DNA of 64,000 bases from Shewanella maritima (GTDB taxonomy: Bacteria; Pseudomonadota; Gammaproteobacteria; Enterobacterales; Shewanellaceae): contig NZ_CP036200.1 in assembly GCF_004295345.1 (NCBI RefSeq), positions 4,403,501 through 4,467,500 on the forward strand, in the 5' to 3' direction. Below the pieces are notes generated by a model that was given only the letters and a program-made list of their open reading frames with translations, did not search any database and had not been told where the DNA came from. Position 1 is the stretch's first letter, and each line of letters starts with the position of its first letter. A program made the position numbers and the translations under genes. This document shows positions 6,333-42,835 of the stretch, piece after piece.

Positions 6333-6758
6333 TTAGATACGGTGGATTACCTGATCTTTATTGATAATCGTTTGTCCTATTGGTGCTAGGCTCAGTAGTG
6401 CCAATTTGAAATGCTGCACCGCGAACGGAATACCGATAATGGTAATAGCACAAGCCAGTGCGGACGCTAAATGACCCAGTGCTAACCAGATCCCGAAGAA
6501 CACTAGCCAGATAATATTACCTAGAAGCCCCATGGTGCCAGTACCTAAATCTTCTTCGCCACGTAAGGTTTTGCGGTTAACGCTTTCTTGACCAAATGGC
6601 CAAAATGCCATTTCACCGATAACAAAACATGCTCGGCCAAAAGGGATACCAATAATACTGATAAAACAAAGCACACCCACTAGCCACCACGCTAGGCCCA
6701 TAATAAAGCCGCCCATTACAAACCATGCGATATTAAAAATAAGCCTTAAAATACTCAT
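6333..6758 (-). CDS. yccF: YccF-family inner-membrane protein
   Basis: A 141-residue hydrophobic protein made of two similar halves, each with the YccF-domain signature IIGIPFG or IIGIPFA after a Trp/Leu-rich membrane segment (residues about 8-45 and 78-118). Length and the tandem layout match the E. coli YccF family. Function is not established; inner-membrane location follows from the predicted helices. Monocistronic by position: it faces the preceding gene and has about 230 bp before the repeat element upstream. Confidence 0.92.
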   Translation of the reverse strand: MSILRLIFNIAWFVMGGFIMGLAWWLVGVLCFISIIGIPFGRACFVIGEMAFWPFGQESVNRKTLRGEEDLGTGTMGLLGNIIWLVFFGIWLALGHLASALACAITIIGIPFAVQHFKLALLSLAPIGQTIINKDQVIHRI

Positions 6759-6989
6759 ATTGCTCCTTGTCGAATAAAAGTAGAGTAAAAACCAATCACT
6801 AGACTGGATGCTAGGACTAGGTACTAACGTAAATGCGATAAGTGTGCCAACAGTGGCAATAAATTATCCATTTGTAGCAAGGTGTTGATATTATTGCGTT
6901 TATTGGTCTGTCTAAGAGTTTGAAGCCTAGCCGTTATATTGCAACAATAAATTGATCTGCGATTTCACACTAACTTTTAGTTAAAATGG

Positions 6990-7289
6990 CTAGGGTCTGT
7001 TGATCTTTGCTGATTAGAATTTGTTCGAATTAAAAGCACTTTAATCGCGACGCGAGCGATGACGTCTAGTCACCTAAACCTATTGATTTTAACAACAGGG
7101 CTCGCAACAAACTAAGCTCTTTGCTAAGGGCGCAGGTGCTTTTAACCGAACCTTTCAGGCAGCGCTTGTTGTCATTTCTACTGCGTTAACGACTTATCAT
7201 GTGGAGCAACCACACATCAAAGTCGTTGCCTTGTATAAATTTCCAACAAGCAGCTGCAAAAATAATCTTGAAAGATCAACAGGCCCTAG
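6990..7289. mobile_element. MITE-like element with 19-bp terminal inverted repeats
   Basis: CTAGGGTCTGTTGATCTTT at 6990-7008 is repeated inverted at 7271-7289 with one mismatch in 19, bounding a 300-bp non-coding element. The outer CTAG at each end could be a target duplication or part of the repeat. No transposase is encoded. The right end abuts the reading frame of the downstream PLP enzyme, so the insertion has replaced that gene's native promoter or leader. From memory, similar GGGTCTGTTGATC-ended elements occur in Shewanella genomes; this was not checked here. Confidence 0.8.
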
Positions 7290-7345
7290 TGCTGAGTGTG
7301 GCTCAGCCTTCGATTAATTTTCGTCATTCATTTTTGGTCTCATTT

Positions 7346-8317
7346 ATGTTTTCTCCAAGCCCAGTACACACTATGCTGTTTCAGCAGCGCACCATTTATA
7401 TCAAACGTGATGATTTACTGGATGAAGCATTTAGCGGCAATAAAGCCCGCAAGTTTGATTACTTTTTCTATGATCAATTCCCTGAGGTCACCCATGTGAT
7501 TGGCAGCGGCAGTGCGCAGGCCAATTCCTTGTATTCGCTATCTGAGTTGGCAAAACGTAAGGGTTGGCAGTTAGACTTTTTTGTCGACCATATTCCTAGT
7601 TACGTGAAACAAAACCCTCGCGGTAACTATCTAGCTGCGCTTAATAATGGCGCTCGGGTGATAAGCGTGAGTGACCATGTTCAATACGCGCATATTAAAG
7701 CCGATAACCTAGATGATAAGGTGGCAGTGATAGCGGCAGACTATCAAAGCCGCTTGGGGCAAGAACAGGTGCTGCATGTACCTGAAGGTGGGCGTTGTGA
7801 GTATGCTCAATCTGGTGTTGCTAAGCTTGGCGCAGAAATTGTGAGTTGGGCGAATGACAATTCAATTCAACAGTTAGATATTTTTCTGCCTGCCGGTACT
7901 GGCACCACAGCCCTGTACCTACAGCAATATTTTGTGCAGCAACATATTGCCGATAATTTTAAGGTGTTTACTTGCGCCACTGTTGGCAGCGCAGATTATT
8001 TGAAGCAGCAGTTTATGCAATTAACTGACAACTCAAGCGAGCTCCCAACTATCTTGTCCAATGGCAAAAAATATCATTTTGGTAAGCTCTATCGCGAGTG
8101 TTATGACATCTGGCGTGAGGTTAATGAAGGCGGTATTGAGTTTGAGCTGCTATATGACCCAATCGGTTTCTTGGTGCTCAAGCACTACTTAAGTCACTGT
8201 CAAATTGAACAGGGCAAGTCCAGCATAGGCAATCGTCCTATCATGTATATTCATCAAGGTGGCTTAAAAGGTAATGAAACCATGCTGCCGAGGTATCAGC
8301 GCAAATACCCGGATTGA
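7346..8317 (+). CDS. PLP-dependent ACC deaminase / D-cysteine desulfhydrase-like enzyme
   Basis: Fold-type II PLP enzyme of the ACC deaminase/D-cysteine desulfhydrase group. IYIKRDDLL is followed by FSGNKARKFDYF, which holds the Schiff-base Lys. A Ser-rich GSGSAQANS segment and PAGTGTTAL (phosphate-binding loop) follow. The frame is open back to an ATG at 7199, but everything before 7290 is the inserted MITE, so those codons are not native. Homology-like sequence starts near PSPVHTM, favouring ATG 7346; GTG 7289 is an alternative. No strong ribosome site is seen. The gene may be poorly expressed. The substrate is uncertain because this family is mis-assigned easily. Confidence 0.8.
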   Translation: MFSPSPVHTMLFQQRTIYIKRDDLLDEAFSGNKARKFDYFFYDQFPEVTHVIGSGSAQANSLYSLSELAKRKGWQLDFFVDHIPSYVKQNPRGNYLAALNNGARVISVSDHVQYAHIKADNLDDKVAVIAADYQSRLGQEQVLHVPEGGRCEYAQSGVAKLGAEIVSWANDNSIQQLDIFLPAGTGTTALYLQQYFVQQHIADNFKVFTCATVGSADYLKQQFMQLTDNSSELPTILSNGKKYHFGKLYRECYDIWREVNEGGIEFELLYDPIGFLVLKHYLSHCQIEQGKSSIGNRPIMYIHQGGLKGNETMLPRYQRKYPD

Positions 8318-33637: not shown

Positions 33638-34717
33638 CTATAACACTCCCTTGCTTGATGGCAAGATATCGCCCTCAACTTTAACTGCTTGACGTAAGGT
33701 GCGACCAAGCACTTTAAACAAGGCCTCAACTTTGTGGTGATCGTTTTCCCCCTCGGTTGATACGTGCAAGGTGCAGCGCAGCCCATCTGCAAACGAGCGG
33801 AAGAAGTGAGGCACCATTTCGGTGGCCATTTCACCCACCATTTCACGATCAAAGTTGGCATCAAACTTAATAAACGGACGGCCTGAAATATCCATCAAGC
33901 ATTGGCCGTTGGCTTCATCCATAGGCAAACTAAAGCCAAAGCGGGCGATACCTCGTTTGTCACCCAGTGCCTGACGGATGGCATCACCAATCGCTAATGC
34001 GGTATCTTCAACGCTGTGGTGATCATCAATTTCTAAATCGCCATCGACTTTGACATCCATTTTAAAGTTACCGTGGGTTTGAATTTGATCCAGCATGTGG
34101 TCAAAAAAGCCGATGCCTGTGTCGATGTCACCTTTGGTCTGGCTATCTAGGTCAATGTTAACGCGAATGTCGGTTTCTTTAGTGGTACGTACAACCTGAG
34201 ATTGGCGCCCTTGGTTTAGCAGTGCATCGACTATCATGTCCCAATTAAGTGTTTCACGTTGGTATTGGAAGCTATTAATGCCCATGGCATTGGCAAGTTC
34301 AACGTCGGTTTGGCGATCGCCAATCACAAACGATTGGGTGAAATCAATTAACCCTTGGGTTAGATACTCTTTCACCAGTCCTAATTTGGGTTTGCGGCAA
34401 CTGCAGTTATCTGAGTCAAAGTGAGGGCAAATTTGAACATCATCAAACTTAACGCCTTGGCTTTCAAAAATTGCCATCATCATATTGTGGGGCGCGTCAA
34501 AGTCAGCTTGCGGGAAAGACGAAGTACCAAGTCCGTCCTGGTTACTTACCATCACTAACTTGTAACCCGCTTTTTGTAGCTTAAGCAGGGCAGGGATCAC
34601 TTGCGGCTCAAATACCAGTTTATCTAAACGGTCTAGCTGTTTATCGATTGGCGGCTCTTCGACTAGGGTGCCGTCACGATCAATAAAGAGGATTTTTTGC
34701 TGCTTGTCTTGTTTCAT
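33638..34717 (-). CDS. hisB: Bifunctional histidinol-phosphatase / imidazoleglycerol-phosphate dehydratase
   Basis: 359 residues. The N-terminal HAD phosphatase (about 1-165) shows [10 protein letters not shown] and a Cys-rich zinc loop ([15 protein letters not shown]). The C-terminal dehydratase (about 170-359) has [19 protein letters not shown] and NDHHKVEA, the His-rich manganese sites. The fusion is typical of gammaproteobacteria and performs steps 6 and 8 of the pathway. Confidence 0.98.
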
Positions 34718-42117: not shown

Positions 42118-42835
42118 ATCAGGTCTTACGCCAAACTCATCAAAACTTTCATCACACCTTTCTTCACAGTCTGCGGTTCCTTCTCGGAGCCGTTTTGTTA
42201 TTGAGCTTTTAGTGGCCTTAATTGTCACCAAATTGCCCTATGTTAGCGTGCCATTTAAGTGGTTCGAAAGCTTCTTCCATGAAATATCCCATGGGATCGC
42301 AACCCTAATTACCGGCGGCGTGGTAAATAGTATTCAGCTATTTCCAAATGGTGCAGGCCTTTGCACTAGTCAAGGTGGGAATGCCATCTTAATTGCCTTT
42401 AGCGGATACCCAGGTGCCGCCTTGTGGGGCTACCTTATTTTCTTGTTAGCTACCTGGCGTGCAGGTATTCGTTTTACCTTGTCATTGCTTGGGCTGATAG
42501 TCATGGCAAGTTTGTTGTTTTGGGCAAGAGATATGTTGACTATCATTATCTTGCTTTGTTTAGCCGGACTTTTTTTGTTACCAATTAAGTTAAATAACAA
42601 TAGTCTTTTAAATAGTTTACTGCGTATATTAGGCCTTATGATTATGCTCAACGCCGTGGCAAGCCCCACAGTGTTGTTTGGTCTAAGCGGTAAAGGTGAT
42701 GCGAATATGTTGTCGCAAATGACCTGGCTACCTGCTTGGATATGGATTTTTATTTGGCTAGCGTTCAGTGGATTAATGTTGTGGCTGAGCTGGTCGAAGG
42801 TGAATGTTAACAAGGGAGTAAAACATGAAGCTTAA
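42110..42835 (+). CDS. M50-type membrane metallopeptidase-like protein
   Basis: 241 residues with about six membrane helices. The HEISH motif (near residue 58) in WFESFFHEISHGIATLITGG is an HExxH zinc site next to a membrane segment, as in M50B site-2-protease-like proteins. An NPDG-like second site is not obvious, so activity is uncertain. The start overlaps the preceding gene by 8 bp and its end overlaps the following methyltransferase by 11 bp. It may process a membrane substrate; the substrate is unknown. Confidence 0.8.
   Translation: MPESGLTPNSSKLSSHLSSQSAVPSRSRFVIELLVALIVTKLPYVSVPFKWFESFFHEISHGIATLITGGVVNSIQLFPNGAGLCTSQGGNAILIAFSGYPGAALWGYLIFLLATWRAGIRFTLSLLGLIVMASLLFWARDMLTIIILLCLAGLFLLPIKLNNNSLLNSLLRILGLMIMLNAVASPTVLFGLSGKGDANMLSQMTWLPAWIWIFIWLAFSGLMLWLSWSKVNVNKGVKHEA

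Follow-up and report, generated by a model that had tools for sequence, protein, structure and literature searches.

Miniature inverted-repeat transposable elements (MITEs), which are non-autonomous, are well known to be mobilised in bacteria by an IS whose ends they share (PMC6382973; PMC10969869). MITEAba12, as described together with ISAba12, resembles the element reported here in being short, lacking a transposase, and carrying the ends of an IS with which its identity is limited to those ends (PMC6382973). It differs in being 111-114 bp long and in generating 9-bp duplications (PMC6382973), whereas the present element has a TA duplication, measures 263-294 nt, contains two conserved inverted hairpin modules, and occurs in many genera. 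The ERIC and RU sequences of enterobacteria are also similar: the published descriptions give them as intergenic and multi-copy, with TA ends and duplications, stable stem-loops, and a partner that they do not encode (PMC2759123; ERIC also PMC10969869). Compared by description, RU-1 (127 bp) and RU-2 (168 bp) differ from our element in size, and a module common to different ends is absent from that description (PMC2759123). ISSod6, an IS5-family element of S. oneidensis, shares with our element the terminal repeat GGGTCTGTTGATCTTT, TA flanks, and a CTAG-like context; unlike it, ISSod6 is autonomous, spans 879 bp, and encodes a 252-aa transposase. What lies between the ends of a bacterial MITE is usually regarded as filler. 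The element described here belongs to a known kind, the MITEs, and the structured module common to different ends is the new part: one interior hairpin, maintained by compensatory change across several bacterial families, recurs behind differing ends. Our literature search found no description of the element or of the cross-end module; a 2008 account of mobile elements in S. oneidensis may cover some of this.

The window analysed is a stretch of 64,000 nucleotides from Shewanella maritima. Positions 6990-7289 form a 300-bp unit with inverted ends, beginning CTAGGGTCTGTTGATCTTT (6990-7008) and closing with its partner at 7271-7289; the two 19-bp ends pair at 18 of 19 positions. Because the TA at 6991-6992 (left copy, within CTAG) and at 7287-7288 (right copy) is the duplicated target, as the flank counts below indicate, the element proper runs on the plus strand from GGG to CCC at 6993-7286 and, at 294 nt, belongs to a long class among the genomic copies. 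Comparison of the ends with each other and with ISSod6 delimits a left terminal inverted repeat, GGGTCTGTTGATCTTT (6993-7008, plus strand), and a right one, GGGCCTGTTGATCTTT (7271-7286, minus strand). According to the list of open reading frames, the element contains short frames only and no transposase of its own. The initial annotation had described a 300-bp unit with 19-bp ends matching at 18 positions that supplies the first 30 codons of the downstream open frame, all of which the end comparison and the genomic copies bear out. It had, however, drawn the feature as far as 7345; the element stops at 7289, since no other copy in the genome goes beyond base 307 of the query 6990-7345.

Forty-five copies of the element were found in the S. 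maritima genome by sequence search, terminal-repeat pattern, and covariance model. With 6990-7345 as the query, the genome returned 41 matches, 40 of which cover approximately bases 1-300 at 81-100% identity, the last being a 34-base piece (query bases 274-307), a number far above what chance would give. The terminal-repeat pattern, allowing up to two mismatches, gave 39 and 38 matches against 5 and 1 for a reversed-pattern control, and added three elements (L042-L044) and a 36-base relic (L041); the covariance model added two further copies (L312 and L327). Measured from GGG to CCC in 43 copies, nine (L001-L009) are 294-295 nt long, five are 276-289 nt, and the rest are 261-264 nt, so that the commonest class in this genome is the shorter one, of about 262-264 nt. 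TA flanks the element on both sides in 30 of the 43, and is missing at one or both ends in 13. The two ends co-vary at positions 3, 4, 5, and 11 (43 copies, 5000 permutations, values ≤0.0022), while positions 7, 8, 10, and 12 fail the same test. The element is thus a MITE, as first proposed: it has inverted ends, a TA duplication, and an autonomous IS with the same ends in relatives, and the other copies, on whose existence that proposal hung, are present. Phage records gave no match to the element, and viral contigs gave no exact match to one element pattern. A second element in the window, suspected from TACCAATTAAGTTAAATA at 42579, was rejected, there being no inverted repeat around it.

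Since the S. maritima genome holds no match to a transposase of the ISSod6 type, we infer the mobilising partner from relatives. Among eight genomes searched, G035 and G060 carry the same terminal repeat in pairs spanning 879 bp (at least eight and at least nine pairs, respectively). The IS so delimited encodes a 252-aa transposase with the Pfam domains DUF4096 and DDE_Tnp_1, and its DNA is 98.6% identical to a locus on S. oneidensis MR-1 plasmid NC_004349.1 annotated as 'IS5-like element ISSod6 family transposase'. The left end of the MITE is identical to the right end of the IS across 21 bases. The right end of the MITE agrees with the IS left end along an exact 13-base stretch, or with the IS right end along 17 bases with one mismatch. 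Outside the ends, MITE and IS share no other match longer than nine bases. The ends match those of ISSod6, and the element would therefore work with ISSod6 and is not itself an ISSod6, the transposase gene being absent from both the element and the genome. An IS630-type origin had been suggested by the TA/CTAG target, but the genome contains no PF13358 (DDE_3) domain and the matching IS is of the IS5 family.

The comparison with other Shewanella genomes that the initial annotation had proposed matched the MITE in at least 59 of 97, with at most seven candidates scored per genome. A full-length transposase match at ≥60% identity is present in eight of the 97 (G035, G055, G056, G059, G060, G062, G077, and G083, the best matches in G056 and G059 having one internal stop), all of which also carry the MITE; so do at least 51 of the 89 genomes lacking such a match. 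It is likely, in our view, that the element is a MITE with ISSod6-type ends and a covarying two-module fold that was moved in trans and inserted into the leader of the gene for a pyridoxal phosphate (PLP)-dependent enzyme. An ISSod6-like transposase would have acted in trans to place the element in a CTAG site. Some elements have unusual arrangements: those in G008, G027, and G062 stand in tandem, approximately 265 bp apart, and at the right end of L063 a second terminal repeat directly follows the first, with a TA common to both. G086 has on each strand approximately 40 terminal repeats, the GGGGCTG variant predominating, and no match to an ISSod6-type transposase, so that it is a further genome rich in MITEs that lacks a visible partner.

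The element is not confined to Shewanella. In a plasmid collection, 11 records match it, from Pseudoalteromonas (six), Vibrio (four), and Catenovulum (one). A pattern scan of GTDB genomes gave at least 120 stretches at no fewer than 80 loci; the matches listed include Psychromonas, Alishewanella, Colwellia, Vibrio, Alkalimonas, Pseudoalteromonas, Thalassotalea, Litorilituus, Bowmanella, Enterovibrio, Aliidiomarina, Algicola, Motilimonas, Shewanella, and others. Among the matches listed, 72 of 80 loci had enough sequence for extraction (eight were skipped) and 61 of these 72 had a clear terminal repeat; of those 61 listed elements, 44 are 263-265 nt long and 48 have TA on both sides. The usual form in Shewanella, Vibrio, Pseudoalteromonas, and other genera is accordingly an element of 263-265 nt with a terminal stem and two arms.

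Folded as RNA, the 300 bases reach -113.1 kcal/mol (z -9.9) on the plus strand and -117.5 kcal/mol (z -9.8) on the opposite strand. The predicted fold consists of a terminal stem, a left arm (7022-7146, plus strand, edges approximate), a small hairpin, and a right arm, the last two together making up the hairpin module (7147-7258, plus strand). Judging from the fold and from other copies, the left arm comprises a diverged inverted copy of the module and the additional bases found in the long class. A first alignment comprised 33 elements (Shewanella, Vibrio, and Pseudoalteromonas); of its 76 consensus pairs, 40 show compensatory change. A second alignment combined 18 earlier elements with 37 of the 43 that a redundancy filter left from 56 foreign ones. 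In these 55 elements, 84 pairs were tested, namely those predicted for each of the two strands alike; 52 have changed on both sides, and 94.3% of cells are paired. The covariation score is 0.361, against 0.127 in shuffled alignments (none of 500 reached it) and 0.055-0.082 for the structure slid along the alignment, with the caveat that relatedness can inflate the contrast with shuffling and that a structure derived from an alignment tends to beat its slid versions. The terminal repeats close a two-armed fold whose pairs have been kept by compensatory change. Conservation is among the highest at the fixed internal loops and at unpaired motifs, of which CCTTGTATAAA is one. No Rfam covariance model matched 6800-7500 up to an E value of 1, and six foreign loci gave only one chance-level snoRNA match, outside the elements.

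From 54 right-arm sequences a covariance model, R1, was built; run over 90 sources, it exceeded 63.5 bits at 75 distinct places, counting the window and L075 as one. The right arm of the window scores 116.5 bits (E 1.2e-22), as a member of the family by construction. The model also matches the left arm on the opposite strand in 22 of the 75 elements at E <1e-3, the lowest value being 2.3e-7. Like any hairpin, a right arm can match its own opposite strand as well, but only three do so at E <1e-3. A second, independent model, R2, was trained solely on the module as it occurs in 11 single-hairpin elements whose ends are of the ATACCAAT(T/C) type. In a reciprocal test it matches the right arm of the window at 7159-7257 (E 3.8e-6, or 8.3e-7 in the window alone) and, on the opposite strand, left arms belonging to other copies, with E values as low as 3e-10. 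These opposite-strand matches to left arms show that the body of the element is one hairpin module of approximately 100 nt present twice, in inverted and diverged form; the module is also found in MITEs with other ends. Neither model matches the left arm of the window copy itself, and in the 64-kb window R2 finds nothing beyond the right arm up to an E value of 5. A possible second module at 33810-33917 (R1 E 0.22) was taken as a chance match, R2 having none there and the sequence looking like coding sequence, probably hisB-like.

The other ends behind which the module occurs are of several types. R1 matches elements with TATACCCAA..ACTT-like ends (L214, E 6.7e-11; L167, 4.5e-8; L171, 1.2e-6), an element with TATACCAATC..TTAAATA ends (L100, E 2.4e-4), and L225, which has a weak 12/14 terminal repeat of another type (E 1.4e-7). 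In the S. maritima genome, R1 gives 73 matches at E ≤0.1, of which 44 lie below 1e-15 (43 known elements and L327), three fall between 1.9e-9 and 5.4e-6, and 26 are weaker; 16 of these places were fetched, and 13 of the 26 weaker matches are known from the score table alone. Two of the matched elements, L313 and L314, have TATACCC ends. At twelve places (L315-L326) the element has a single hairpin and ends of the ATACCAAT(T/C) type; eleven of the twelve measure 162 nt and one (L322) 176 nt. Among 185 class-level genomes, searched with stricter filters, R1 at E ≤1e-5 matched in 11, S. maritima included. Twenty places from the other ten show further ends, among them GGGCCTGTTAACACTA and GGAACCTCTGACTGG, convincing ends being unreadable for some of the 20 (for example L329, L332, and L339). 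Seven of the 20 were folded whole and all are two-armed, one of them (L347) being an element of the present type. Because several end types share GGGCCTGTT or GGGCGTGT with the present element, they are not all unrelated.

We tentatively put forward, as possible rather than probable, a further reading in which the hairpin module and not the terminal repeats is the unit kept by selection. It would be a portable folded nucleic acid, present behind different ends in one copy or in two inverted copies in several gammaproteobacterial MITE lineages, the same body being moved by different transposases and its folded form (DNA cruciform, single strand, or RNA) being recognised by a host or transposition factor. 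The simpler account is an ordinary IS-derived MITE in which the ends alone matter, the interior is a passive palindrome, the pairing is a by-product of inverted-repeat conversion, and the module elsewhere reflects shared ancestry. The confinement of identity with the IS to 13-21 end bases, the decay of resident copies, and the concerted variation of the ends at positions 3, 4, 5, and 11, which conversion could produce, are all consistent with a passive interior. We nevertheless consider it unlikely: conversion should erase internal loops, yet CCTTGTATAAA and the fixed loops are highly conserved, 44 of the 61 foreign elements among the matches listed keep to a length of 263-265 nt, and the module remains recognisable behind different ends. 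Whether the folded interior of a MITE is active in its own movement or on adjoining genes becomes a testable question, and the covariance models could serve to annotate many intergenic repeats in marine gammaproteobacteria.

Which molecule folds was approached through branch changes from a standard pair to G-U or A-C, counted on strand-neutral pairs. The G-U to A-C counts are 46:12 in the left arm, 12:36 in the right arm, and 14:9 in the ends. Opposite signs in the two arms are what two inverted modules would give if one strand were favoured. The contrast is almost gone on the best-supported pairs (8:5 and 10:12), and the single-module type has constant U-G pairs that argue in the opposite direction, so that the strand signals conflict. 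Reading the counts as evidence for RNA of one strand was therefore rejected, as the direction differs between the arms and fades on the best pairs. In the S. maritima copies, outside the ends, there are 44 singletons on 134 paired sites and 47 on 97 unpaired sites. Among the 44, 28 break the pair, and changes to G-U and to A-C are equal at 10 each. We read this as selection that acts chiefly on the mobile lineage; because paired sites have somewhat fewer singletons than unpaired ones, resident copies may also be under a weak constraint. The fold may be kept because spreading copies need it, as folded DNA or RNA, with resident copies mostly decaying.

These counts also bear on a second alternative, that the element is a structured RNA acting in cis on its neighbours or in trans, its copies being kept as a service to the host. 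Strong RNA folds and covariation would be expected of such an RNA, copies are often upstream of genes, with 3 of 43 between convergent frames as a raw count, and the present copy is probably within a leader. We think this account very unlikely: the pairs of resident copies are broken by singletons without any excess of G-U over A-C, the preference between the two is opposite in the arms and weak on the best pairs, the scan found no promoter in the element here, and Rfam offers no match. Nor is there an orientation bias in the 43 copies relative to flanking frames, which by a simple, uncurated rule for open reading frames number 15 for -+, 13 for --, 12 for ++, and 3 for +-. The 15 divergent and 3 convergent cases are raw counts, to be read without an expected share.

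Downstream of the element lies a gene for a PLP-dependent enzyme resembling D-cysteine desulfhydrase and ACC deaminase (7346-8317, plus strand, from the start suggested by homologues), and upstream of it the divergent yccF (6333-6758, minus strand, identified by its domain and by locus comparison). The enzyme is matched in all 97 Shewanella genomes. It has no Pfam family at E 0.001, and its matches to the NCBIfam D-cysteine desulfhydrase and ACC deaminase models are far below the cut-offs. At 29 homologous loci, the alignment starts at residues 1-5 of a protein begun at 7346. The upstream frame is closed at most 18 codons before the aligned start in 25 of these loci, and in the other four (L085, L088, L091, and L104) it stays open for 25-38 codons of unrelated sequence. 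Comparison with homologues puts the protein start near 7346, and translation would then probably begin at 7346 itself. The warning in the initial annotation that the long start creates a false N-terminus was well founded; the false extension (7199-7345, plus strand) amounts to 49 codons, because 19 codons of leader, up to 7345, add to the 30 from the element.

In all 29 loci from relatives, yccF lies upstream and is divergent to the PLP gene. The gap between the two is 196-303 bp in 28 of these loci and 554 bp in L100, against 587 bp here. Removing the element and one TA leaves 291 bp, within the range of the relatives, and DNA has therefore been added at this locus. A -10-like box, TTAGTTAAAAT (6977-6987, plus strand), recurs in relatives: of 32 distinct gaps, 12 have it with at least 10 of 11 positions matching at a distance of 25-45 nt from the gene (mean 0.07 and at most 1 in 300 shuffled sets). 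The other 20 gaps lack it, some of them having TACAAT or TACACT at the aligned place by eye; relaxed to at least 9 of 11 positions anywhere in the gap, the box matches 21 of 32, but so do 21% of shuffles. In S. maritima, the box is intact and the element proper begins five bases downstream of it, so the claim that the insertion replaced the promoter is not supported: the gap grew by addition. The box is a probable native promoter element, and the native promoter was probably not replaced. As no sigma-70-like site passed a scan of 6750-7400, it is unproven both that the box acts as a promoter and that the element supplies a new one. By eye, insertion just after a -10 box is not a general rule in the left flanks of the other S. 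maritima copies.

That expression of the PLP gene came under the control of the insertion, its promoter being replaced by the element or the gene being silenced, is quite improbable: the element does stand between yccF and the PLP gene, 56 bases before the inferred start, and its right arm contains a TATAAA (7234-7239), but the conserved box is retained, addition alone explains the gap length, no promoter-like site passed the scan, and the reading frame of the enzyme is open. On the preferred reading, of a MITE inserted into a leader, the PLP gene would retain its promoter and gain a structured leader of approximately 300 nt, which may lower or modulate expression. Flanking sequence and relatives' loci place the element, probably, in the 5' leader of the gene. 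The locus corrects both a false protein start and the promoter claim. No close relative with an empty site was found, the best identity of the PLP protein in the genus being below 60%. The native leader, bounded by the other copies of the element and by relatives' loci, extends from the element to the gene start (7290-7345, plus strand); directly after the element, at 7290-7310, it contains a short inverted repeat visible by eye, GCTGAG..CTCAGC. In another species (G041), the same yccF-PLP gap contains the 282-nt element L100, which has TATACCAATC ends and the same module, lies in the orientation seen here, and stands approximately 50 bases before the PLP gene.
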